Shown in pieces: positions 566 through 12,002 of a stretch of 12,296 bases of DNA. The stretch covers positions 4,335 through 16,630 of the forward strand of contig NHGH02000003.1 in the NCBI GenBank assembly GCA_002172355.2. The letters are read 5' to 3'. Source of the DNA: Euryarchaeota archaeon TMED132 (GTDB lineage: Archaea; Thermoplasmatota; Poseidoniia; Poseidoniales; Poseidoniaceae). The notes below the pieces were generated by a model. It worked only from the letters and a program-made list of their open reading frames with translations. It had not been told where the DNA came from and did no database searches. A program made the translations under genes and the position numbers. How positions within the stretch are numbered: the stretch's first letter is position 1; every line of letters begins with the position of its first letter.

Positions 566-575
566 TTACTTGGGT

Positions 576-887
576 ATGTCCGACGTTCTTCGTAAAATCA
601 AGCAAACTGAGCGCGATGCAGCAAAGAAACTTGCTGATGCGCAAAGCGAAGCATCAAAAATTATGTCCGATGCTAGAAAGCAGTCTAGCGAAATCGTATC
701 TAGTGCGGCAGATGATTCTGTCTCGAGCACTCAAGCGAAACTCGATACGGCACGCGAAGGTGCAGATAAAGAAGCAAGTAAAGTCCAAAAGACAGGTTCG
801 AAGGAAGTTGATTCCATTGAATCAAATGCTACAAAGAATTTAGACAAGGCTGTTAAAGCAATCTTGGATACAATGACTACATTTTAA
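576..887 (+). CDS. atpH: A-type ATP synthase subunit H (peripheral stalk)
   Basis: Predicted 103-residue, highly charged Ala/Lys/Ser-rich protein that looks like one continuous coiled coil, without membrane segments. Subunit H pairs with subunit E to form the peripheral stalks that hold the A3B3 head against the membrane subunit I. The length is usual for archaeal H (about 100-110 residues), and first position before subunit I is the classic archaeal order. The ATG at 576 is chosen over an in-frame GTG at 561 because the AGGTGAT site at 559-565 overlaps that GTG and is correctly spaced only for 576. The stop ends 9 bases before atpI. The assignment rests mainly on context and coiled-coil composition, since H diverges quickly. 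Confidence 0.88.
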   Translation: MSDVLRKIKQTERDAAKKLADAQSEASKIMSDARKQSSEIVSSAADDSVSSTQAKLDTAREGADKEASKVQKTGSKEVDSIESNATKNLDKAVKAILDTMTTF

Positions 888-896
888 GGTGTTATT

Positions 897-3227
897 ATGC
901 TTGAAATGTCCCGATTAACCGTCGCTGCACCAGTCGGTAATTTGGAAGAAGTAATTCGTCAATGCACCAACTTAGGCTGCGTCCATATCGAAGAATACAG
1001 TAATTTCGAAGATGGAATTGGAATAGGTTCTTCGATAAAAAGCGAAGGCTCAGAAATTGTCAGCAGGCTGCTGACAAAAGTTCGTTCACTCCAGTCTGAA
1101 GTCAACGCTATCAACATGGATGGTCCAACTACACGTGAAAACGTAATAGGGATTCTAGATGGATTTGAAGCAAAGGTAGACAATGCTCTTGAGTTTATTG
1201 AAACAATTAGAGATTGTGAATCTGAAATCTCTTCCTTAGAAGAGCAATTAAAGGCGCTGACAAGAGTTGCTCCATTGAATATTCCTCTAGAATTAATGTC
1301 TGGCTATGAGGGTGTAGAGATTTACTTGGCTGAAACCAGCAAGGCATCAAAAGCTCAAGTTGTTTTCAGCGACATTATCAATGATATTGAACTCAAAGTT
1401 TCAAAGGGAATTATTGCTGTTGCATGCCAACCTAAAGATGGAGCAGCCGTCCAAATTGCATTAGCTGAACTGGGTTCTAAAGCCGTTCAAATCCCTAGTG
1501 GCGAAGGCACTCCCTCCGAGAGAATGTCAGAGATAGAAGCGACGATTAGGAATCTACATTCCAAGAGCGAAGATACTGTCGAATCTCTAGAAGGCTGGGC
1601 AAAATCCAATGGCTCTGATCTCGTAAGAGTCAAAGAACACCTTGAAAGAGAGGAACAAATTTTCACGGCGCCAACCTTGGTAGCGGTCAGTAATCAAGCC
1701 TTCGCACTCGATGCTTGGGTTCCTACAAACAAAGCAGATGAAGTTAGTGCTAAACTATCTAAATGTGCTTCCCATGTTTCTATAGAAGAGTACGTTGATT
1801 CACATCATCATCACGAAGAAGACCATGAGGAGCATCATTCAGAAACTCCAAAAGAACTGATAATGCTTTCTCAGCATCTGGAATCTTCAGGGCAGAGCGT
1901 TTTCCAATTTTTCAAGTCGATGGATCTTGATGATTCAGGAGACCTAGACTTCAAAGAAATAGAAAAAGCCATGAAATCCGCTGATATAGGCGATATGCCA
2001 CCTTGGAATATGGCTAAGTTCTTGGCTGCGATTGACATAAACAGAGATGGAAGAATTAACTTACCTGAACTAGATATCGCATTAGCGAATGTTTCATCTT
2101 CTGATTCACACTCTACTCATGATGATGCAGTCCCGCCAATTGAATTTGTCAACGGTAAGGCTACTGAGCCATTTGAACTATTGGTTGATTTGGTTGGAAG
2201 GCCAAAGTATGGGACATATGATCCTTCGATGCTTCTAATGATGACTTTCCCTCTTTTCTATGGGATGATTTTGGGGGATTGGGGATATGGCCTTCTAATC
2301 TATCTACTTGCCGTATTCTTAGGCTCTAAACCATTCGCCAAAGACCCACTTGCGCAAAATGGAATTACTATCCTCAAGTGGATGGGTGCTTGGTGTATTA
2401 TTTGGGGAATAATTTTCGCTGAAGGATTTGGGTTTGTTTGGGATGATACAGGTCAATTAGGAAATTCATCGCCATTCGATGCATTTTATGATTGGACGTA
2501 TGCTAATGTCCACGTCCCTCATGCTATTGCTGACTTGCTTAACCTTGGTGGATTGCACATGCCATTCCACAGGGCAAGCCCAGGACATGGTTTGCAAGAA
2601 TATGTAGTTCTTTCAGTTTACATCGGTATTGCACACATTTTCCTAGGGCTAGTTATTGGTCTGGTGACAGTTTTCAAAGCACATGGCGCAGCAGCTGCAT
2701 ACTTCGAAAAAGGTTCTTGGTTACTTATTTTAACCGGCGGTTCGATGCAAGCAAGAAATATGGTAATGGGATACAATGGTCTTTTCGACATACAAATTTG
2801 GACATTCCTAATCATTATTGGACTGGCAAGTTTAGTGGTTGGTTTGGCCGTCTACGAAAAGTTCGGATGGGTTGGTGGCCTGATAATGGGTCCAATTGAA
2901 ACATTCGGACTACTAGCTAATACTCTTTCATATCTTAGAATAATGGGAGTAGGTGTCGCTGGTGTTAAAATTGCTGAAGTTTCAATTACTATGGGCTGGG
3001 AAAAAATCGGTCCAGCACTTGATTCAGGAGATGTAGTTTCACTATTACTTGGAGTTATTCTCTTTGTTTTGATTCAGTTATTTGCTATAGCACTGGGAAT
3101 TCTGTCCCCTACAATTCACGCCGTCCGTCTACACTTTGTAGAATGGATGGGCAAGTTTTACGACGGCTCGGGTAGCGCTTTTGCGCCGCTTGGTGGCCGC
3201 ACCCTACACGTAGAGGGTGAATCATAG
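897..3227 (+). CDS. atpI: A-type ATP synthase subunit I (membrane stator, a-subunit homologue) with EF-hand insertion
   Basis: 776-residue stator subunit; archaeal relatives are commonly about 620-690. Residues 1-300 form the cytoplasmic arm with coiled-coil stretches. Residues 413-776 start with the family's PP...N...PFE lead-in and form the polytopic membrane domain that carries ion half-channels beside the c-ring. The FPLFYGMILGDWGYGL signature lies at 451-466. The essential channel arginine is R681 in SYLRIMGVGVAG, and R744 in HAVRLHFVEW matches the second conserved arginine. Between arm and membrane domain, residues 301-411 are an extra module: a His-rich linker, two canonical EF-hand loops (343-354 and 380-391) and a second His/Asp linker. 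AAGGTG at 886-891 overlaps the atpH stop and is spaced 5 bases from the ATG at 897; an ATG at 906 is a weaker alternative. Subunit identity is secure; the function of the insertion is unknown. Confidence 0.97.
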   Translation: MLEMSRLTVAAPVGNLEEVIRQCTNLGCVHIEEYSNFEDGIGIGSSIKSEGSEIVSRLLTKVRSLQSEVNAINMDGPTTRENVIGILDGFEAKVDNALEFIETIRDCESEISSLEEQLKALTRVAPLNIPLELMSGYEGVEIYLAETSKASKAQVVFSDIINDIELKVSKGIIAVACQPKDGAAVQIALAELGSKAVQIPSGEGTPSERMSEIEATIRNLHSKSEDTVESLEGWAKSNGSDLVRVKEHLEREEQIFTAPTLVAVSNQAFALDAWVPTNKADEVSAKLSKCASHVSIEEYVDSHHHHEEDHEEHHSETPKELIMLSQHLESSGQSVFQFFKSMDLDDSGDLDFKEIEKAMKSADIGDMPPWNMAKFLAAIDINRDGRINLPELDIALANVSSSDSHSTHDDAVPPIEFVNGKATEPFELLVDLVGRPKYGTYDPSMLLMMTFPLFYGMILGDWGYGLLIYLLAVFLGSKPFAKDPLAQNGITILKWMGAWCIIWGIIFAEGFGFVWDDTGQLGNSSPFDAFYDWTYANVHVPHAIADLLNLGGLHMPFHRASPGHGLQEYVVLSVYIGIAHIFLGLVIGLVTVFKAHGAAAAYFEKGSWLLILTGGSMQARNMVMGYNGLFDIQIWTFLIIIGLASLVVGLAVYEKFGWVGGLIMGPIETFGLLANTLSYLRIMGVGVAGVKIAEVSITMGWEKIGPALDSGDVVSLLLGVILFVLIQLFAIALGILSPTIHAVRLHFVEWMGKFYDGSGSAFAPLGGRTLHVEGES
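1797..2129 (+). other. EF-hand pair with His-rich linkers inserted in subunit I
   Basis: This part of atpI encodes residues 301-411. It opens with HHHHEEDHEEHH (303-314) and a short helix-like stretch. EF-hand loop 1 (343-354) has D343, D345, S347, D349, D351 and E354 at coordinating positions 1, 3, 5, 7, 9 and 12, with G348 at 6 and L350 at 8. EF-hand loop 2 (380-391) has D380, N382, D384, R386, N388 and E391, with G385 and I387. Each loop is followed by a helix-like segment. The module ends in a Ser/Asp/His linker with H405 and H408. The frame is continuous and base composition does not change obviously. By comparison with the a/I family it lies in the linker just before the membrane domain, so on the cytoplasmic side. 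Calcium binding is predicted from the motifs. Confidence 0.88.
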
Positions 3228-3237: not shown

Positions 3238-3244
3238 AATAAAT

Positions 3245-3250
3245 GGAGGT
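3245..3250 (+). promoter_or_regulatory. Ribosome binding site that fixes the atpK start
   Basis: GGAGGT lies 7 bases before the ATG at 3258. An in-frame ATG at 3243 shares a base with this site and cannot use it, so translation should begin at 3258. Confidence 0.85.
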
Positions 3251-3257
3251 AGCAAAA

Positions 3258-3581
3258 ATGAATAATAATACCCTGAAAATGAGCCTAAGAACACTGATCG
3301 TATTGTTGGTACTGACCTTGGTTGCACAAGGTGTTGCAGCACAAGATGCAGCAACGACTGACGACGATTCGAACGACATAACTGGAGACATCGGCATGAT
3401 CGGTGTTGGACTAGCACTTGGTCTTGCGGCCATTGGCGCTGGTTTCTCCCAAGCTGCTATTGGTAGCGCTGCTGTCGGAATGCTTGCTGAAGATGGAAGC
3501 AAGTTCGGTGTTGCGCTTATCTTTACAGCGTTGCCAGAATCTATCGTGATTCTTGGTGCATTGCCGCTCTTCCTTCAATAA
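3258..3581 (+). CDS. atpK: A-type ATP synthase subunit K (c-ring proteolipid)
   Basis: 107-residue proteolipid that forms the rotating membrane ring. Residues 1-28 look like a cleavable signal peptide: a basic start, the hydrophobic LIVLLVLTLVAQG, then AA before QD. An acidic linker follows (QDAATTDDDSNDITGD, 29-44). The mature part is a two-helix hairpin: helix 1 is glycine- and alanine-rich (about 45-73), the polar loop is AEDGSKFG (77-84), and helix 2 (about 85-105) carries ALPES with the ion-binding carboxylate E94. The tyrosine that follows this motif in well-studied Na+-binding c subunits is leucine here, which leans towards H+ coupling without settling it. A signal-like leader is known in some other archaeal c subunits, such as that of Sulfolobus. 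The start at 3258 follows from the GGAGGT site. RNA hairpins flank the gene at both ends. Confidence 0.95.
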   Translation: MNNNTLKMSLRTLIVLLVLTLVAQGVAAQDAATTDDDSNDITGDIGMIGVGLALGLAAIGAGFSQAAIGSAAVGMLAEDGSKFGVALIFTALPESIVILGALPLFLQ

Positions 3582-3621: not shown

Positions 3622-3629
3622 AGATGTTT

Positions 3630-3634
3630 GGAGG
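3630..3634 (+). promoter_or_regulatory. Ribosome binding site that fixes the atpE start
   Basis: GGAGG followed by 8 purine bases leads to the ATG at 3643. An in-frame TTG at 3628 shares its last base with this site and is not a credible start. Confidence 0.85.
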
Positions 3635-3642
3635 AAAAAAAG

Positions 3643-4206
3643 ATGACGCTAGAAACATTAGCAAAGGATATCGCAGCATCAGCTGACGCTGAAGCGAAAG
3701 CGATAATTAAGAAAGCTAAAGCCGAGGCCAATGAAATTTTATCAGAGGCAGAAAGTAAAGCAGAAAGTATTCGTAGTGAAGCAGATGCAAGAGCAGAAAG
3801 AGAATCTGTTCAGATTGCTAGAGAAGTAGTCGCAAGCGCTCGCCAGGCCAATCAAAAGGAAATTTTGATTGCCAGGAGAAAGGTTTTGGACGCTACTCAT
3901 GATGCTGTTAAGCAACAATTAGCAGACCCTGGATTCAAAGGACGTGCTAGTATGCTAAAGTCTATGATGACAAATGCTGGAAAAACGGCTGGTGCTGATT
4001 ATATCATAAGACCGGTAGAAGTTGACCGAAAGGCCTTAGATGGCATTAAGGGCAAGAGAAAAATCGGAGAATCAGTCGATGGACTTGGAGGTTTTATCCT
4101 CGAAGCACCCGATGGTTCAATTTCATATGATATGAGATTTGATACCCTTTTAGAAAATGCTTGGAATGATTCACTGTCTTCAGTGAATTCAATATTGTTT
4201 GGTTAG
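3643..4206 (+). CDS. atpE: A-type ATP synthase subunit E (peripheral stalk)
   Basis: 187-residue protein, the usual length for subunit E (about 185-205). Residues 1 to about 90 are a long Ala/Glu/Lys-rich helix that pairs with subunit H in the stalk. Residues from about 105 form the globular domain that binds the top of a B subunit, with the family signature DGLGGFILEAPDGSI at 146-160 followed by the FDTLLE segment. The ATG at 3643 follows a GGAGG site, giving MTLETLAKDI. The 61-base gap before it is the widest inside the operon and contains the second atpK hairpin. The stop is immediately followed by the atpC start region, which suggests coupled translation of E and C. Confidence 0.95.
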   Translation: MTLETLAKDIAASADAEAKAIIKKAKAEANEILSEAESKAESIRSEADARAERESVQIAREVVASARQANQKEILIARRKVLDATHDAVKQQLADPGFKGRASMLKSMMTNAGKTAGADYIIRPVEVDRKALDGIKGKRKIGESVDGLGGFILEAPDGSISYDMRFDTLLENAWNDSLSSVNSILFG

Positions 4207-4211
4207 GTGAT
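4206..4211 (+). promoter_or_regulatory. Ribosome binding site that selects the GTG start of atpC
   Basis: GGTGAT, preceded by A, overlaps the last base of the atpE stop and lies just before the GTG at 4216. The arrangement matches GGTGttatt-ATG at atpI. An in-frame GTG at 4207 lies within the site and is less likely. Confidence 0.65.
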
Positions 4212-4215
4212 TATT

Positions 4216-5250
4216 GTGTTTGGTAATACTGCTTATGTTGCTTCGAGGGCTAAATCCCGTCGAAATAAACTTGCAGATTTGGCGCGTATGCGACAATTGA
4301 TTCACCAATCACCTGATCAGTTGACTGTAGCAGTAAGTAACATCGGATATTCCGATGAAATCAACTTATATGCTGGGAAATTCAATGGAGGAGACCTTGT
4401 TGAAGCTGCACTGACTCACAACCTTGAGTCAGAACTTGAAGAAATAGTTTCAATGTGTAATGGTAAAGTCAAATCATTGGTAGAAGTTTATACTTCTAGA
4501 TTTGAGTATCAGAATGCAAAAGTAGTTTTACGAGCGGTAATGAATGATGTAGACTTGGACAAAGTATCTCATTCCATATTACCAGAGTTAAACCAAATCA
4601 ACACACCTTGGTTGAAGATAATCGAAAATTCAGATGATTTACGTTCTGCAGTTACCCAAATGCGCAGGAAATCATTTGGCTCTTCATTGATGGCTTTGCC
4701 AGAAGATGCTAGATTATCTGATTATGAAGATGCCTTGGATAGGCATTACTTCTCAGTAGCGACAAAGGCATTATCTTCTACTAAGCCTTCAACAAGATAT
4801 CTAAGAAATTATCTTGCTATGGAAATAGATCATCGTAATATTTTGAATATTTTAGAAGCGCAGTCAGTTGGAATTAATTCAGAAGATATATCTGAACTAT
4901 TAATCCCAGGTGGCAGAATGCTCCCTAGTAGTTCCTTTTCATCCATTGCTGCCGGTGGAAAGGATTCTATGATGGACATTTTAAGGTCTTCAAGTAAGTT
5001 AGACTTTGCAGAATTTGAACAACTTCTTTCTCGCTCTAAAGATGTTAGAAGTTTAGACCCAGTAATTACTTGGTTCAAGAACCAAGAGCATAAATTCATG
5101 CAAAGGATGAGTTATTTACATCCAGTATCTGCATTACCGATCATTCATTACATTTGTATGAAAGTTCAAGAGGTTGCAGATTTGAGAATTATAGTTAGAG
5201 GTAGGCTTGCGGGTCTTCCAGAAGATGTGTTAGAGGCACACATAATGTGA
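4216..5250 (+). CDS. atpC: A-type ATP synthase subunit C (central stalk, c-ring adaptor)
   Basis: 344-residue soluble all-helical protein, a homologue of eukaryotic V-ATPase subunit d. Subunit C sits as a funnel on top of the c-ring and couples it to the D/F shaft. Its N-terminus (FGNTAYVASRAKSRRNKL) and the region around residues 95-110 (VEVYTSRFEYQNAKVVLR, containing the family's Y..RFE..N.K) fit the family, and the length agrees with about 330-360 in other archaea. The start is the GTG at 4216, placed by the GGTGAT site; a GTG at 4207 would add three residues (M-I-I). It is separated from the atpE stop by 9 bases and from atpF by 10, so translation is probably coupled. Confidence 0.93.
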   Translation: MFGNTAYVASRAKSRRNKLADLARMRQLIHQSPDQLTVAVSNIGYSDEINLYAGKFNGGDLVEAALTHNLESELEEIVSMCNGKVKSLVEVYTSRFEYQNAKVVLRAVMNDVDLDKVSHSILPELNQINTPWLKIIENSDDLRSAVTQMRRKSFGSSLMALPEDARLSDYEDALDRHYFSVATKALSSTKPSTRYLRNYLAMEIDHRNILNILEAQSVGINSEDISELLIPGGRMLPSSSFSSIAAGGKDSMMDILRSSSKLDFAEFEQLLSRSKDVRSLDPVITWFKNQEHKFMQRMSYLHPVSALPIIHYICMKVQEVADLRIIVRGRLAGLPEDVLEAHIM

Positions 5251-5260
5251 AGGTGAAGAT

Positions 5261-5560
5261 ATGGATTTAGCAGTTATAGGTTCACCTGAATTCACTTTAG
5301 GATTCCAGCTTGCTGGAATTTCTAATATCACTAATCCAGAGAATGATGATGAAATGGCTTCAGCCTTGAAATCTCTTCTCAATGATAAAAATGTAGGTAT
5401 TGTGGTTATCGACTCCGTAATACTTGCAGCATTGCCAGATCGCTTGAGAAACAGGCTTTCGGCATCAGTAACCCCTACTGTGCTTGGAATTGGTACAGAA
5501 GAGGATACAACCTTGCGTGATACAATTCGTAAGGCAATAGGAGTCGACTTATGGAAATGA
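5261..5560 (+). CDS. atpF: A-type ATP synthase subunit F (central stalk)
   Basis: 99-residue protein with the Rossmann-like alpha/beta pattern of subunit F. It opens with DLAVIGSPEFTLGFQLAGI (residues 2-20), the family's conserved first strand and loop. A second core strand is VGIVVIDSVIL at 45-55. F binds subunit D in the rotating shaft and in related enzymes affects catalytic activity through its mobile C-terminal segment, which here is short (TTLRDTIRKAIGVDLWK). The ATG at 5261 has AAGGTGA at 5250-5256, starting on the last base of the atpC stop, so C and F are tightly linked. The length is normal and nothing appears truncated. Confidence 0.95.
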   Translation: MDLAVIGSPEFTLGFQLAGISNITNPENDDEMASALKSLLNDKNVGIVVIDSVILAALPDRLRNRLSASVTPTVLGIGTEEDTTLRDTIRKAIGVDLWK

Positions 5561-5587
5561 TATTCCAACAAAAATGGAGGAAAAAAT

Positions 5588-7327
5588 ATGAGTAATGAAG
5601 GAGTAATATACCGAATATCCGGTCCTGTTGTGACCGCAACTGGAATGAAAGCAGCGATGTATGACGTCGTTAGAGTTGGAGAAGAAGGACTGATGGGTGA
5701 AGTAATTGAATTACACGGCGATAAAGCGGTAATTCAAGTATACGAAGATACGTCTGGAATTAGACCTGGTGAACCAGTTCTGAATACCGAAGAAACACTT
5801 TCTGTATCTTTAGGTCCAGGTCTTTTGACACAGATTTATGATGGAATCCAAAGACCACTGGCAACCCTCGAAGAAGTAATGGGTGTATTCATTACAAGAG
5901 GAGTTGATGCTGATGCATTCGATTTAGAAAAGGTTTGGAAGTTCGAACCTACAGTCGCAAAAGGCGACTCGGTAGAAAGTGGACAAGTCATTGGGAATGT
6001 CCAAGAGACAGAGACAATCGTTCACAAAATCATGGTACCTCCAGGCATGAGTGGAAAAGTAAAGTCAATCGAATCTGGAGATTTCAATGTTACTCAAACC
6101 GTTTGTGTCCTCGATGATGGTTCTGAATTACAGATGATGCAGAAGTGGCCGGTTAGAACGCCTCGTCCTTACCGCCAAAAGTATGCACCTGATACTCCCC
6201 TAGTTACTGGTATGAGAATTCTTGATTTCTTGTTCCCACTTGCTAAAGGTGGGGCGGCTGGAATTCCTGGGCCATTCGGGTCTGGTAAGACAGTTACACA
6301 ACAATCTCTAGCAAAGTACTCTGACGCACAACTGGTTGTCTATATTGGATGTGGTGAAAGAGGAAATGAGATGACTGAAGTTCTTGACGAATTCCCTCAC
6401 TTGATTGACCCTAACACAGGTAAGCCATTGATGGAACGTACCGTTATGATTGCAAATACATCAAACATGCCTGTTGCTGCACGTGAAGCATCTGTGTATA
6501 CTGGAATTACTATTGCTGAGTATTTCCGTGACATGGGATACGATGTGGCTTTGATGGCAGATTCAACCTCCAGATGGGCTGAAGCAATGCGTGAGATTTC
6601 ATCACGACTTGAAGAAATGCCTGGTGAAGAAGGATATCCTGCTTACTTATCTTCAAGAATCGCAGAATTCTATGAAAGAGCAGGCCGTGTTGAAACTTTG
6701 AATGGCGATGATGGTTCAGTTACTGTTATCGGTGCTGTATCCCCACCAGGTGGAGATATTTCTGAACCTGTATCACAAGGTACTTTGAGAATTGTAAAGG
6801 TTTTCTGGGGCCTAGATGCAGGTCTTGCAAGACAAAGACACTTCCCAGCGATTAACTGGTTGAATTCTTATTCTCTTTACCCACAAAGTCTCGACCAATG
6901 GTTTAGAGATAATATCGCACAGGACTTCCCTGAAGTTAGAACTCAAATCAGCGGTCTATTACAAGTTGAAGCCGAATTACAAGAAATTGTACAATTAGTA
7001 GGTTCAGATGCTCTGCCAGTAGATCAACAACTAACTCTAGAAGTTGCAAGAATGATTCGTGAGTTCTTCCTACAACAGAATGGTTTCCACGAAGTTGATG
7101 CATATTGTGACATACACTTGCAATACAAGATGGCTAAAGCTATCCTATCTTTCCAAGATGCAGCAAAGTCTGCAATGGCTAATGGTGGACAACTCAATGA
7201 TGTAGTAAACGTTCCAGCAAGAACTGACTTGATGAGAGGAAGGTTCGAGAAGGGATACGTAGACACCATCGAAGGAATGATAAAATCAATGAATGAAGAA
7301 ATCGCCAATACGGTGGAGGAGAACTAG
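5588..7327 (+). CDS. atpA: A-type ATP synthase catalytic subunit A
   Basis: 579-residue catalytic subunit that binds and makes or hydrolyses ATP in the A3B3 head. The order is a beta-barrel (residues 1 to about 75), the A-specific bulge insertion (about 110-190), the RecA-like nucleotide-binding core, and a helical C-terminal domain (from about 440). The P-loop is GPFGSGKT (228-235) with K234 and T235. GERGNEM (256-262) carries the catalytic glutamate E257. The Walker B strand is [14 protein letters not shown] with D325. Several archaeal A subunits carry an intein at the P-loop; this one is uninterrupted. The GGAGG site at 5576-5580 supports the ATG at 5588. atpB follows after 11 bases. Confidence 0.99.
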
Positions 7328-7338
7328 GAGGGATAATT

Positions 7339-8718
7339 ATGAGTGGAAAAGAATACCGAACAATTACTGACGTTAAAGGGCCATTGGTCTTTTTGAATAA
7401 AACTGAGCCTGTAGCATTTGGTGAAATTGTCACCCTAAGGCTATCCAATGGTACCATCAAGAATGGACAAGTTCTTGATACATCTGATGATCTTGTTATC
7501 GTACAAGTTTTCGAAGGAACAGCTAAGATTGACAGAGAAGCAGGAGTTACTTTCATGGGAGATGTGTTTAAACTTCCAGTTAGTACCGAACTTGTCGGAA
7601 GAATTCTCGATGGAGCAGGTAGGCCAAGAGATGGTGGACCTCAAATCGTTGCTGATGAGAAAGCTGACATTATCGGCGCTGCTATCAATCCATACAGTCG
7701 TCAAAGCCCGCACGATTTCATTCAAACTGGAATTTCGGCAATCGATTGCTGTACAACATTAGTTCGTGGACAGAAACTACCAATTTTCTCAGCATCTGGA
7801 CTTCCTCACAATGATATTGCTCTTCAAATTGCACGTCAAGCAAAACTAAAGGGTTCTGATGAAGAATTTATTGTAGTATTTTGTGCTATGGGAATAACAG
7901 CTGAAGAATATAATTTCTTCCGTTCTGACTTGGAAAGAACAGGCGCTCTAGAGAATGCTGTACTGTTTGTTAACCTTGCAGATGACCCTGCGGTTGAGAG
8001 AATCATTACACCTCGTCTTGCTTTGACAGCTGCAGAGTACTTGGCTTTCGAGAAAGATTACCACGTACTTGTTATCTATACTGATATGACAAACTATTGT
8101 GATGCCCTAAGACAAATTGGTGCAGCACGTGAAGAAGTTCCAGGTAGAAGAGGTTACCCAGGATATATGTATACAGATTTGGCAATGCTTTACGAGCGTG
8201 CTGGAATTGTTAAGGGCAAGAAGGGTTCAATCACTCAATTCCCGATTTTAACAATGCCTGGTGACGATATTACTCACCCAATTCCTGACCTTTCAGGATA
8301 TATTACTGAAGGACAGATTGTTATTTCTCGTGAATTACACCAACAAGGAATTTATCCTCCGATCAATGTATTACCTTCATTGTCTCGTTTGATGGGTTCA
8401 TGTATTGGCGAGAAAACCACTAGAGAAGACCACAAATCAGTATCTGACCAAATGTATGCTGCTTATGCTCAAGGTCGTGAACTAAGAGGTTTAGTTGCAA
8501 TTGTTGGTGAAGATGCTTTGAATGAGCGTGATAAGCAATTGCTTGACTTCTCTGGTGTCTTTGAAGATAAGTTCCTAAGGCAAACTAGAGACGAAGACCG
8601 TTCTATAGAAGAAACTCTAGATCTTTGCTGGTCTTTGATGTCATCTATTGATACCAAGTATCTAGTACGTCTTGACCAAAAATGGATTGAGAAGTATCAT
8701 CCTGAAAACAAAGAGTGA
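7339..8718 (+). CDS. atpB: A-type ATP synthase non-catalytic subunit B
   Basis: 459-residue regulatory subunit that alternates with A in the hexameric head and completes the catalytic sites at the A-B interface. It has an N-terminal beta-barrel, a RecA-like core and a helical C-terminal domain. As expected for B, the P-loop is replaced by SASGLPHND (151-159). The conserved arginine that reaches into the neighbouring catalytic site is R350 in LPSLSRLM. The length is typical (about 455-465). The ATG at 7339 is preceded by GGAGGG at 7327-7332, which begins on the last base of the atpA stop, so A and B are probably translated together, in line with their equal copy number. Confidence 0.99.
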
Positions 8719-8743
8719 GCAAAACAAATTGAGGTGATTTTTC

Positions 8744-9361
8744 ATGGCTTTGGATATTAAACCAACAAGAAGTGAACTAATCAAGCTCAAGGCTAGGATT
8801 AAGCAGACTAAGAATGGATATAAACTTCTAAAAATGAAGAGGGATGGTCTATTCCACGAGTTTAGACAACTATTGTCCAAGATGATTGAAGCAAAGCGTG
8901 ATTTGACTGAATCATATCGTTTGGCAAAGCAAAGAATTGATTTGGCTAATGCGATTGAAGGCGGTTTGGCAGTTAGGGCTGCTGCAATTGCAAACAGCGC
9001 TCATCCTGAAGTTGAGGTTGAGCGAAGAAACATCATGGGTGTTGTAGTTCCTAGCGTCAGTGGCTCTAATTTGAAATCAACATTTCAAGAGCGCGGTGTA
9101 GGATATATTGGTTCTTCACCATATATTGATGAAGCCGGTGATTCATTCAGTGATTTGATTGGAAAGATTGTAACCGCTTCAGAAATGGAAGCCACTCTGA
9201 AGAGATTACTGGAAGAAATTGAAGCAACAAAGAGACGTGTAAATGCTCTTGAATTCAAGGTTATACCAGAACTTGAGGAAGCAAGAGTGTTTATTCAACT
9301 AAGACTTGAAGAGATGGAAAGAGAAGAAACATTCCGTCTCAAGCGTTTCAAGAATAAGTGA
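8744..9361 (+). CDS. atpD: A-type ATP synthase subunit D (central rotor shaft)
   Basis: 205-residue protein of the V/A-type D family, the counterpart of F-type gamma. It opens with the family signature PTRSELIKLKARIKQTKNGY (7-26), continues as LLKMKRDGL, and ends in a long charged helix. The two terminal helices form the antiparallel coiled coil that turns inside the A3B3 head, and the base contacts subunits F and C. GAGGTGAT at 8731-8738 supports the ATG at 8744. It is the last ATP synthase gene here. No subunit G gene follows, but that gene occurs only in some archaea such as Methanosarcina. Confidence 0.97.
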   Translation: MALDIKPTRSELIKLKARIKQTKNGYKLLKMKRDGLFHEFRQLLSKMIEAKRDLTESYRLAKQRIDLANAIEGGLAVRAAAIANSAHPEVEVERRNIMGVVVPSVSGSNLKSTFQERGVGYIGSSPYIDEAGDSFSDLIGKIVTASEMEATLKRLLEEIEATKRRVNALEFKVIPELEEARVFIQLRLEEMEREETFRLKRFKNK

Positions 9362-9434: not shown

Positions 9435-12002
9435 ATGTCGAGCCCTAGTGATTCCAAGAGCGACGACTCCGAGGGTGTAGACCAACTGATTGCTCAAAAG
9501 AAATCATGGGACCAAAAACAGTTGCTTGAATCAATTTTAAAGAGATATTTCCACCTTTATGGGGAAATAGGTGGGAGTCGATGGCCAATTTGGAAAGCGG
9601 ATGCCAAAGAGGATCAAGATGTCCATGATAGTTTGCAAGACGCCAATGAATATTTACAGAAACTAGGTTGGATGATAAAATTAGATTTTGGAGATCCTTG
9701 GGTTTTGCAGGTTCTTCCACTTCCTGAAAGACAATTCCCGTCTTCCAAGAGTTTAATCGCCATGTGGTCATTGACAGTTGTTTCATTGACCTTGGCAGGC
9801 ATGTATTGGATGGAGGGTTCCATTCCAGATGGTGGATGGTTCCACGAGTCTCTATTTGTTGATGCTGTTTTAGGATATGTTTTACCAGTGGTAAGTATAA
9901 TGTTGATTGCATCATTTGTTCAAAAGAAGTGGGCCGAACGCCATGGAATTCGTGTTGGCCACCTATTACCGCTTCCAGAGCCAACCATCGCTTTGTTTAG
10001 TTTAGGATTTTTATCCAAATCTTATCTTGTTTGGCCATTTGGTTTACTATTGATTCCATCACTGCCAAGAATGGATGCACGTCCATGGAAAAATCGCCAT
10101 TCTTTAGGTTGGGTTTCTCTTTCAGTTCCTTTGATATTCATATCAGTTGGCTCTTTTTTGTGGATTTTAGGTTTATTCATGACGCCTGAGTTTGTAGAGA
10201 TTACCTCTATGCAATATGTTTCTGATTCTCCATTATTGGTCAACCTGATAAGTATAATGACATTTGATGATTTATCCGTTAGATTATTATGGGCGCATCC
10301 ATTTACTAAAGCAGGTACTTTGTTATGTTTTTATGGTTGGATTTCACTTCTTCCAATCCCAACCTTCCCCGGAGGACGTATTCTTGTGGCTCGTGTGGGT
10401 CTAAATGATGCCAGAAATTCTTCCAATCAGTTCTTTCTATTCATGATAATACTGGTCTTTGCATGGATGTTTGATGCATTTGATGGATTTACAATTTGGT
10501 TACCTATCCTTGGTGTAATTATCCCATTATTGCTATTCATGGGTTCAGATAAGAGAGTTCCAATAGTCTTGGATGAAGCGAAAGGTATTGAGCCGGAATC
10601 TGTGTCTAAAATGGGTATGGTTTTATTCTTAATTTTTATGATTTCTTTACCAAGTCAAACTCCGTTTTCAATGGATGAAGATTGGGATGAGTCTATTGAG
10701 TATCAATTCGATGACCAAATCAAAATTATGGAAAAAGATGGTATTTGGTACGGCCATTTGGAAGTAGAAGTCTTGAATCCATCTGCAATAACTCAACACT
10801 GGACTATAGATTTGGCAAGAATCAATGGAGTTGCCTCCACTAAATGGGATGCTAATTGGTTGTGCAGTGACGATGATTCAATTTCGATTGAAGATTTAGG
10901 TTGTGGCGACGATATATTGCCTGGCAAGAAATCATCTGCAATTCTAAACCTAACATGGAATGTTTCTGGATATGAGCCGATAGCAGAAGAATTCTATTTG
11001 ATAACATATATAGATTCTAAAGCCCAATTCGATACTATACTAGCTTCCCCTGAATTACCAGCATACCCTCTTTCAGGCTGGGAATTAATCAACTCTAATG
11101 GGGAAATAAAACGCTGTCTAAGCCTTTCAATTGATTCTGAAGAGCCGGTAAACATTTCTTTCCCACAATCTTCTTCGGTTGATTTTCAAACACGAATGTA
11201 CTGGATTGATGGTCACCAAGGGCTGGAAACTTCATTAGAGTCAGAGGATGATTCACTTTGTATTCGAGGTCAAGATGCTATAATCTTAATGCGTTCGACA
11301 GAATTGAATGTAATTAAATTAGGTGACTCATTATTTATTCCTGATCAGCCTATTCTGTCTAATAGAGCGATTATTCCTTCCACAGGTTGGGAGATTAATA
11401 ATTCGTTAGAATATGGATGGGGAATAATAATCAGTCCAGGCCAAATATTGTCAACATCTACAGATTACTGTTTATTAGATTCTAAGGTTAGTACCCCTGC
11501 CAAACCACTTACTGAGAACGAGTCATGGATTTGGGATATGGAATATAGGGATATCGCACAGGTTCCAAGTATCAAAGAAAATTCATCAATAATCCTCAAG
11601 GTTCCAGACTTTGAAGAATTATCAATTTGTTCTAATCCAAACCATCCATTGCCACAAGACAACATATCTGTAGAAAGAGGCCCAGAATTAGTTTTGACTC
11701 GAGAAGGTATCGCCCATCGATTATGGACAAATATTTGGGCAGCATCGATGAATGGGACACTACTACATCCTGAGATGGCTGACTTTGAGATTCATAATCC
11801 TTCAAATGAATCGATTCCAGTTAATATTATTCAAACTACTTTAGGAGACGGCGCCGAAGAATGGAGCATTGTTGAATCAACAGCGATACTTGAACAAGGA
11901 ATGAATAATTTCGAATTCTCACCTTCAAACAGCACTTTCTCAACAATGCGCCTTGACCATCAAGATGGCCAAGTTTACATTTATTTGGGAAGTTATATGT
12001 GA
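9435..12002 (+). CDS. Site-2-protease-like (M50, EGY type) membrane pseudoprotease with large ectodomain
   Basis: 855-residue membrane protein. Residues 1-105 are a charged domain ending in a GDPWVLQVLPLP strand pair like the pre-membrane domain of EGY-type site-2 proteases. About eight membrane helices lie between 106 and 405. In the core, AERHGIRV (167-174), R212-M213 with P217 and N220-R221, HPFTKAG (288-294) and SLLPIPTFPGGRIL (304-317) line up with the EGY pattern (ARRYGI, RMxSPxPNR, HPLAxAG, NLLPxGxLDGG). Both zinc motifs are lost: ASFVQ (159-163) sits where HExGH belongs, and P312 replaces the LDG aspartate. Residues 406-855 form a probable external beta-rich domain with six cysteines (C477, C490, C561, C609, C679, C732) and ten N-x-S/T sequons. 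The function is not known; a non-catalytic chaperone or sensor role is inferred. The start at 9435 has GAGGA at 9424-9428. Confidence 0.75.
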   Translation: MSSPSDSKSDDSEGVDQLIAQKKSWDQKQLLESILKRYFHLYGEIGGSRWPIWKADAKEDQDVHDSLQDANEYLQKLGWMIKLDFGDPWVLQVLPLPERQFPSSKSLIAMWSLTVVSLTLAGMYWMEGSIPDGGWFHESLFVDAVLGYVLPVVSIMLIASFVQKKWAERHGIRVGHLLPLPEPTIALFSLGFLSKSYLVWPFGLLLIPSLPRMDARPWKNRHSLGWVSLSVPLIFISVGSFLWILGLFMTPEFVEITSMQYVSDSPLLVNLISIMTFDDLSVRLLWAHPFTKAGTLLCFYGWISLLPIPTFPGGRILVARVGLNDARNSSNQFFLFMIILVFAWMFDAFDGFTIWLPILGVIIPLLLFMGSDKRVPIVLDEAKGIEPESVSKMGMVLFLIFMISLPSQTPFSMDEDWDESIEYQFDDQIKIMEKDGIWYGHLEVEVLNPSAITQHWTIDLARINGVASTKWDANWLCSDDDSISIEDLGCGDDILPGKKSSAILNLTWNVSGYEPIAEEFYLITYIDSKAQFDTILASPELPAYPLSGWELINSNGEIKRCLSLSIDSEEPVNISFPQSSSVDFQTRMYWIDGHQGLETSLESEDDSLCIRGQDAIILMRSTELNVIKLGDSLFIPDQPILSNRAIIPSTGWEINNSLEYGWGIIISPGQILSTSTDYCLLDSKVSTPAKPLTENESWIWDMEYRDIAQVPSIKENSSIILKVPDFEELSICSNPNHPLPQDNISVERGPELVLTREGIAHRLWTNIWAASMNGTLLHPEMADFEIHNPSNESIPVNIIQTTLGDGAEEWSIVESTAILEQGMNNFEFSPSNSTFSTMRLDHQDGQVYIYLGSYM

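Follow-up and report, generated by a model that had tools for sequence, protein, structure and literature searches.

What is a pair of calcium-binding motifs doing in the stator of an archaeal ATP synthase? The question is raised by a stretch of 12,296 nucleotides from Euryarchaeota archaeon TMED132 (NHGH02000003.1, positions 4,335 to 16,630), referred to here as the window, which belongs to contig C14 of a genome assembled to 74.55% completeness. By profile searches the window holds an A-type ATP synthase operon in the order H-I-K-E-C-F-A-B-D, with all genes on the + strand. Subunit I of this enzyme, encoded by atpI, carries an EF-hand pair between its N-terminal stator domain and its membrane domain. 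The fusion is genuine and conserved, and among the genera examined it is confined to one. Since modules of the same kind occur on other membrane proteins of related archaea, the finding concerns a module in repeated use and not an oddity of one ATPase.

An EF-hand pair within ATP synthase subunit I

The atpI gene (897..3227, + strand) is a single ATG-initiated frame of 776 residues, identified by Pfam and Foldseek. The protein matches V_ATPase_I (PF01496) at E 4.3e-28 with 98.2 bits, against a cut-off of 30.7. Sequence and structure searches alike give V/A-ATPase subunits I/a as the closest solved relatives, and Thermus subunit I (6r0z_N, E 1e-16) is the top Foldseek match of the predicted model. 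The N-terminal stator domain (residues 1-300; 897..1796, +) has a fold that fits subunit I/a of A/V-type ATPases, and genes H, K, E, C, F, A, B and D are all recognised beside the subunit I gene on the same strand. The membrane domain, delimited by alignments (residues 413-776; 2133..3224, +), contains R681 (SYLRIM) and R744 (HAVRLHFVEW), which are invariant in both alignments checked and align to SYLR and HALRLH of a solved chain. We take them to be the equivalents of the essential membrane half-channel arginines of subunit a. Operon position, stator domain, membrane domain and conserved arginines are therefore all shared with known members of the family (PF01496; Thermus 6r0z_N and 3rrk). 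The difference lies between the two domains, where residues 310-400 are left uncovered in the two best alignments to solved a/I chains, entries that name no EF-hand.

The EF-hand pair module spans approximately residues 320-403 (1854..2105, +), as delimited by Pfam, AlphaFold2 (AF2) and its absence from the 51 EF-less homologs aligned. EF loop 1, DLDDSGDLDFKE (residues 343-354; 1923..1958, +), and EF loop 2, DINRDGRINLPE (residues 380-391; 2034..2069, +), are complete and canonical and share one continuous frame with the rest of the protein, as a preliminary description drawn from the DNA letters had claimed. A His/Glu/Asp-rich linker precedes the module (HHHHEEDHEEHHS; 1803..1841, +) and a His/Ser/Asp-rich linker follows it (2106..2132, +), the latter being the least conserved of the segments compared. 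An alignment of 95 subunit I proteins bears out the earlier placement of the pair at the linker before the membrane domain; the extent then given, 1797-2129, does contain the module, but its remainder consists of the two His-rich linkers.

EF-hand_7 (PF13499), the profile of the pair, matches subunit I at E 3.1e-6 and 27.9 bits in hmmscan, just below the 30-bit cut-off, and at 32.3 bits, above it, in the genome search. A match to the XopAW effector profile (25 bits against a cut-off of 120) was rejected as merely the common EF-hand. AF2 predicts helix-loop-helix order twice in the EF region, with a confidence score (pLDDT) of only 53-73 there and below 50 in the linkers on both sides. A structure search with the weak subunit I model gave no clearly named EF-hand chain among 50 rows, which the weakness of the model may explain. 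Like ordinary EF-hand pairs (PF13499; centrin and calcium-dependent kinase chains), the module has two 12-residue loops with glutamate at position 12 and a predicted helix-loop-helix order; unlike them, it sits in the stator of a rotary ATPase, comprises only two EF-hands and lies within a His-rich linker. By homology to the solved a/I subunits, the module would be placed on the cytoplasmic side of the membrane.

No a/I subunit with an EF-hand was found in the open-licence literature searched, in keeping with the preliminary description, and among the titles listed for such publications on Marine Group II, Poseidoniales and Thermoplasmatota none pointed to an EF-hand in ATP synthase or NuoL (subscription papers and preprints lay outside the scope). 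Word searches for EF-hand and calcium were negative in the main text of PMC6336850 and in PMC6461757. The passages seen of a further paper list calcium-binding domains among protein families specific to Poseidoniales, the same archaeal order, and mention neither ATP synthase nor complex I nor a protein resembling an oxidase (PMC9258230).

Distribution, constraint and insertion site

A search of 292 genomes of the class gave at least a partial match in 280. Genus g1, to which the window belongs, is represented by 57 genomes: 46 have the module in subunit I, 6 are without it (G283, G238, G103, G097, G164 and G216, all read) and 5 are undetermined, with the gene missing or cut (G232, G248, G249, G267 and G270). 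Forty-four of the carriers were read in the alignment, G151 was read later, and G220 was scored from an unbroken match to residues 3-464. All 45 subunit I sequences read from 22 other genera lack the module, and among the matches listed none from a genus other than g1 spans it in subunit I. Carriers of the fusion include G002, a single contig of 2,064,136 bp equal in length to CM001443.1 (the 'MG-II chromosome', presumably closed), and AG-333-I22, which we take to be a single-cell genome. The EF-plus-linker stretch was also compared with a set of 5.8 billion proteins by a search that needs shared words, and the best 120 of 154 matches contained only subunit I fusions. Two long apparent inserts in the membrane domain (L045, L046) proved to be runs of N.

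Both loops are canonical in all 45 subunit I modules read from g1, and D343, D345, S347, G348 and E354 as well as D380, D384, G385, N388 and E391 are invariant in a 37-sequence alignment. The codons at the invariant loop positions vary synonymously among 44 genes. Both loops are also kept in 129 of 129 database proteins fetched, an alikeness to be expected because these proteins were chosen by similarity. Mean pairwise identity among 44 proteins is 0.797 in the loops, 0.654 in the module, 0.619 in the N-terminal domain and 0.746 in the membrane domain, with values of 0.468 and 0.372 for the upstream and downstream linkers. The ratio of nonsynonymous to synonymous substitution rates (dN/dS, as a ratio of sums) comes to 0.062 in the module, against 0.091 in either flanking domain; the comparison is rough, since dS values are high and the regions were scored over different sets of pairs. 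Pairs were kept at a membrane-domain dS of 0.2-1.5 and a region dS of 0.1-3, leaving 69 comparisons for the EF region, 135 for the N-terminal domain and 176 for the membrane domain.

The alignment of 95 proteins shows that the module is inserted inside a His/Asp/Glu-rich linker. Most EF-less homologs keep this His/acid-rich linker (for example HHHHHDDDHGHHEEP in L054), and three of family f3 are without it. We infer one gain, within genus g1 or its ancestor, probably by insertion into the pre-existing linker. When the linker and module columns are removed, a whole-gene tree of 667 columns gathers the 44 carriers among its 95 rows into one clade (support 0.995), with the six EF-less g1 genes as its sisters. 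The N-terminal domain alone joins these six to genus g2 (support 0.903; 88 with IQ-TREE), and one g1 clade is unrejected (p-value of the approximately unbiased test, p-AU, 0.391). Taken together, the tree tests do not separate late gain from loss in the six EF-less g1 genomes. The six genes (L047-L052) thus combine a membrane domain that goes with g1 and an N-terminal domain that tends toward Poseidonia; they may be recombinants, although the signal is non-significant.

Related modules on complex I and an oxidase-like protein

The preliminary description had treated the module as a feature of the ATPase. Within subunit I it does occur in g1 only, but the same kind of module is also found on complex I and on a third protein, X, of related archaea. 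The NuoL subunit of genus g2 (Poseidonia) carries it in a His-rich loop bounded by MENMGGL and by a helix whose last residues are ASGAVIHEVHH. By the topology of complex I, this site is presumably the cytoplasmic TM11-TM12 loop beside the broken helix TM12. All 26 determined g2 genomes have the module in NuoL (27 searched, G209 undetermined), and 24 of 25 modules have two canonical loops, with one further row excluded for unknown residues. The host protein (L106) matches Proton_antipo_M (PF00361) at E 4.4e-58 and the chain 5 N-terminus (PF00662) at E 1.8e-8, and its best solved chain is NADH dehydrogenase subunit 5 (6hum_F, E 5.8e-76). In g1, this His-rich loop of NuoL is present but has no module in it (three sequences read; split matches agree).

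Genus g19, of a sister family, has a divergent EF-hand pair in this NuoL loop in 8 of 8 genomes sampled, a count that covers the genomes drawn by the NuoL search and leaves two further g19 genomes outside. The same loop is thus used in two genera, g2 (L106, L130-L154) and g19 (L155-L158, L209-L212), and since the g19 pair stands apart in sequence, the loop may have received an EF-hand pair on two occasions. A NuoJ-like open reading frame (ORF) that precedes NuoL in g19 bears a module of the common type at its C-terminal end in all three loci holding the ORF (L155, L156 and L157). The L155 copy, truncated where the locus ends, scores 19.8 bits against PF00499 (cut-off 33.2); it lies together with NuoL and a 102-residue ORF that was judged NuoK-like by reading. 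In no genome did the module appear on subunit I and NuoL at once, as judged mostly from match patterns rather than from reading both genes.

Protein X has approximately 650-860 residues, numerous membrane helices and an EF-hand pair at its C-terminus, and copies with the module were read from each of the family's 11 genera. Full or partial matches to X, among them matches to the module only, occur in 254 of 284 genomes. Six rows are listed for family f2: in four the match stops short of the module, at X residues 499-506, and in the other two it reaches residues 535 and 557. The membrane part matches no named Pfam family, PF00115 (COX1) included. An AF2 model (pLDDT 63.9, predicted template modelling score, pTM, 0.61) has cbb3 oxidase subunit I as all of its best seven Foldseek matches (TMt 0.71-0.77, E 3.8e-8 to 1.6e-7, 13-16% identity). 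A search for heme and copper histidines found no all-His core column in 11 diverse rows: the best are H84 (8 of 11) and H268 (6 of 11), both of which are kept in 22 of 22 close relatives, and H553, histidine in 10 of 11, lies beyond the last membrane helix. X is therefore probably an oxidase-like protein without hemes. Database names, where given, call it a hypothetical or EF-hand domain-containing protein. The modules of X are canonical in 45 of 46 rows, one of them from g10, one from g11 and the others from g1, the exception being the g10 row, and they reach 84% identity to those of subunit I. X (G000:C39, which is L115; L159, L112 and others) sometimes has a SAP domain in addition to the terminal EF-hand pair, and its gene adjoins a YchF-like GTPase gene, named by reading, in L099-L101.

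The genomes themselves tend to be rich in EF-hand pairs. EF-hand_7 matches at E up to 0.001 number 8-17 in six of seven genomes and 2 in the seventh (G010); among 14 control genomes they occur in one (Caulobacter), and the four archaea seen in the control set have none. We collected 165 modules and removed 15 from 11 loci (repeats, near-copies and unknown residues), which left 150; setting aside the modules of soluble proteins and of g19 NuoL reduced these to 134, and dropping near-copies gave the 93 modules of an 82-column tree. The g2 NuoL modules form one group in this tree (92/87), having been split 23 and 2 in an earlier FastTree. In that earlier FastTree, with soluble EF-hand proteins as the root, X modules of several genera and the g19 NuoL pair occupy the deep branches (low supports). 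X is the likeliest source of the module because it carries it family-wide, whereas the other hosts are restricted. The subunit I module was most likely copied from the C-terminus of X, out of the pool of similar modules in these genomes.

A candidate calcium switch and its alternatives

Taken as a group, the modules are best read as a reusable cassette, putatively Ca2+-responsive, on ion-coupled respiratory machines. For subunit I we tentatively favor a functional EF-hand pair that was inserted from this pool and acts as a Ca2+-responsive stator switch, altering the coupling of the enzyme. Cytosolic Ca2+ would normally be low, and Na+/Ca2+-exchanger-type proteins are encoded (PF01699, in 8 of 8 genomes examined). 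A rise in Ca2+, for example on a falling ion gradient, would fill both loops, and the loaded pair would expose a hydrophobic face and grip a stator helix or a partner. The link between the stator arm and the membrane half would thereby be altered, which may change coupling or reverse hydrolysis. A wider version, possible but doubtful, is that one interchangeable EF-hand cassette in His-rich loops provides cytosolic Ca2+ control of oxidative phosphorylation across Poseidoniales. It would have arisen by domain shuffling, with the host machine differing by lineage: the stator in g1, and antiporter subunits of complex I in Poseidonia and g19.

Several observations count against the stator switch and the history proposed for it. 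The structure prediction proposed in the preliminary description gave helix-loop-helix twice, but the model is weak (mean pLDDT 58.6, pTM 0.35) and leaves the module unplaced. PF01699 proteins are also present in 11 of 14 control genomes, and for that reason they make Ca2+ export merely plausible. In loop 1 of the g19 NuoL pair all 8 genomes have R in place of G6, and 4 of 14 X modules outside g1, g10 and g11 are not fully canonical, so not every module need bind two Ca2+. Six g1 genomes manage without the module. The membrane-domain FastTree nests their genes within the carriers (supports 0.993 and 0.887), which suggests that loss may have been easy; in the corresponding IQ-TREE test the nested tree scores higher (p-AU 0.801), and a single EF+ clade is also unrejected. 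As to the donor, the module in the window reaches no more than 58% identity to any X module, the 82-column module tree is too short to fix the source, and the subunit I modules are scattered in it (4 label changes), although one clade is unrejected (p-AU 0.458).

The alternatives differ from the stator switch in what the bound Ca2+ would do. A structural site, in which the pair is always loaded and serves as a rigid Ca2+-stabilized spacer or buffer with no sensing, would account for the canonical ligands in both loops, for linkers predicted at low confidence on either side (pLDDT <50) and for the six congeners that do without the module; seawater, moreover, is rich in Ca2+. We consider this rather unlikely, since a spacer needs no ligand-perfect conservation of both loops (45 of 45), the linker of EF-less relatives is short, a sign that no spacer is required, and such modules recur on other ion-coupled machines. 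Because the modules are common to several machines, a sensor or a docking tag fits better than a spacer. Ca2+-dependent docking, whereby the module recruits a common partner or tethers the ATP synthase to other membrane proteins, is nevertheless unlikely too. Similar modules on three kinds of membrane energy protein would suit it, as would their position next to acidic or His-rich linkers, where a binding tag might be expected. Tethering of the ATP synthase to NuoL by paired modules is improbable because no genome was seen with both.

Passive insertion of a neutral domain tolerated in a loop is very improbable. The site is indeed a variable linker, as the identities upstream and downstream show, and six congeners lack the module, but 46 of 52 determined g1 genomes have it, its ligands are invariant and its dN/dS is no higher than that of the rest of the gene. 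An assembly chimera or contamination, the outcome against which the preliminary description proposed a survey of relatives, has a negligible chance and is rejected: most carrier records are titled metagenome-assembled genomes, but the frame is continuous and full-length in dozens of assemblies, the loops stand in every database protein fetched (chosen by similarity, as noted), and the 46 g1 carriers include a single-contig chromosome record.

If the wider version of this reading is right, it would be a prokaryotic counterpart of Ca2+-tuned respiration, reached by domain shuffling. Mitochondria adjust ATP synthesis by Ca2+; to our knowledge, such tuning is not known from prokaryotic ATP synthases or complex I. 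DUOX, NOX5 and external NADH dehydrogenases are EF-hand-regulated membrane redox enzymes of eukaryotes. They likewise place a Ca2+ module in a membrane enzyme, but the hosts described here, in which regulation is putative, are an archaeal ATP synthase and complex I. The V-ATPase regulator mEAK-7 appears in a paper that refers to the EF-hand (PMC9263379), but it is a separate mammalian TLDc-domain partner and not a domain of subunit a. One small domain seems to have moved between respiratory machines, each time at an equivalent His-rich loop. The stator module is genetically separable and EF-less genes of the same genus provide natural controls, so the Ca2+ question is directly testable.

The remaining operon genes lie on either side of atpI. 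The peripheral stalk gene atpH (570..884, +) matches TIGR02926 AhaH at 50.5 bits (cut-off 48.5), and atpE-C-F-A-B-D (3628..9361, +) are assigned by profile matches. The c ring subunit gene atpK (3243..3581, +; PF00137) encodes an LPESIVI motif and an N-terminal extension that resembles a signal peptide by reading. In the part seen of a study of this motif class, it is the MGIIa motif, for which Na+ coupling is inferred and H+ still allowed (PMC6336850). Just 3' of atpD, at 9435-12002, lies a gene for an 855-residue protein with hydrophobic stretches and no Pfam match. The window has no match to Rfam at gathering scores.

Minor observations concern other genomes of the set. The subunit I genes L072 (in G010) and L080 (in G030) differ greatly, although both genomes are coded as g13, a genus of family f2; in the whole-gene tree the G010 gene falls with g4 and g7, which are genera of family f1, a possible gene transfer. 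The genus-g11 bin G245 encodes a 628-residue protein (L105, on C7) whose EF module lies near g1 modules, and this may be bin contamination. Proteins of 614-726 residues (G000:C19, which is L121; L117 and L118) combine, as judged by reading, zinc-ribbon-like cysteine pairs, several EF-hand pairs (also recovered in searches) and hydrophobic stretches with a very acidic tail.

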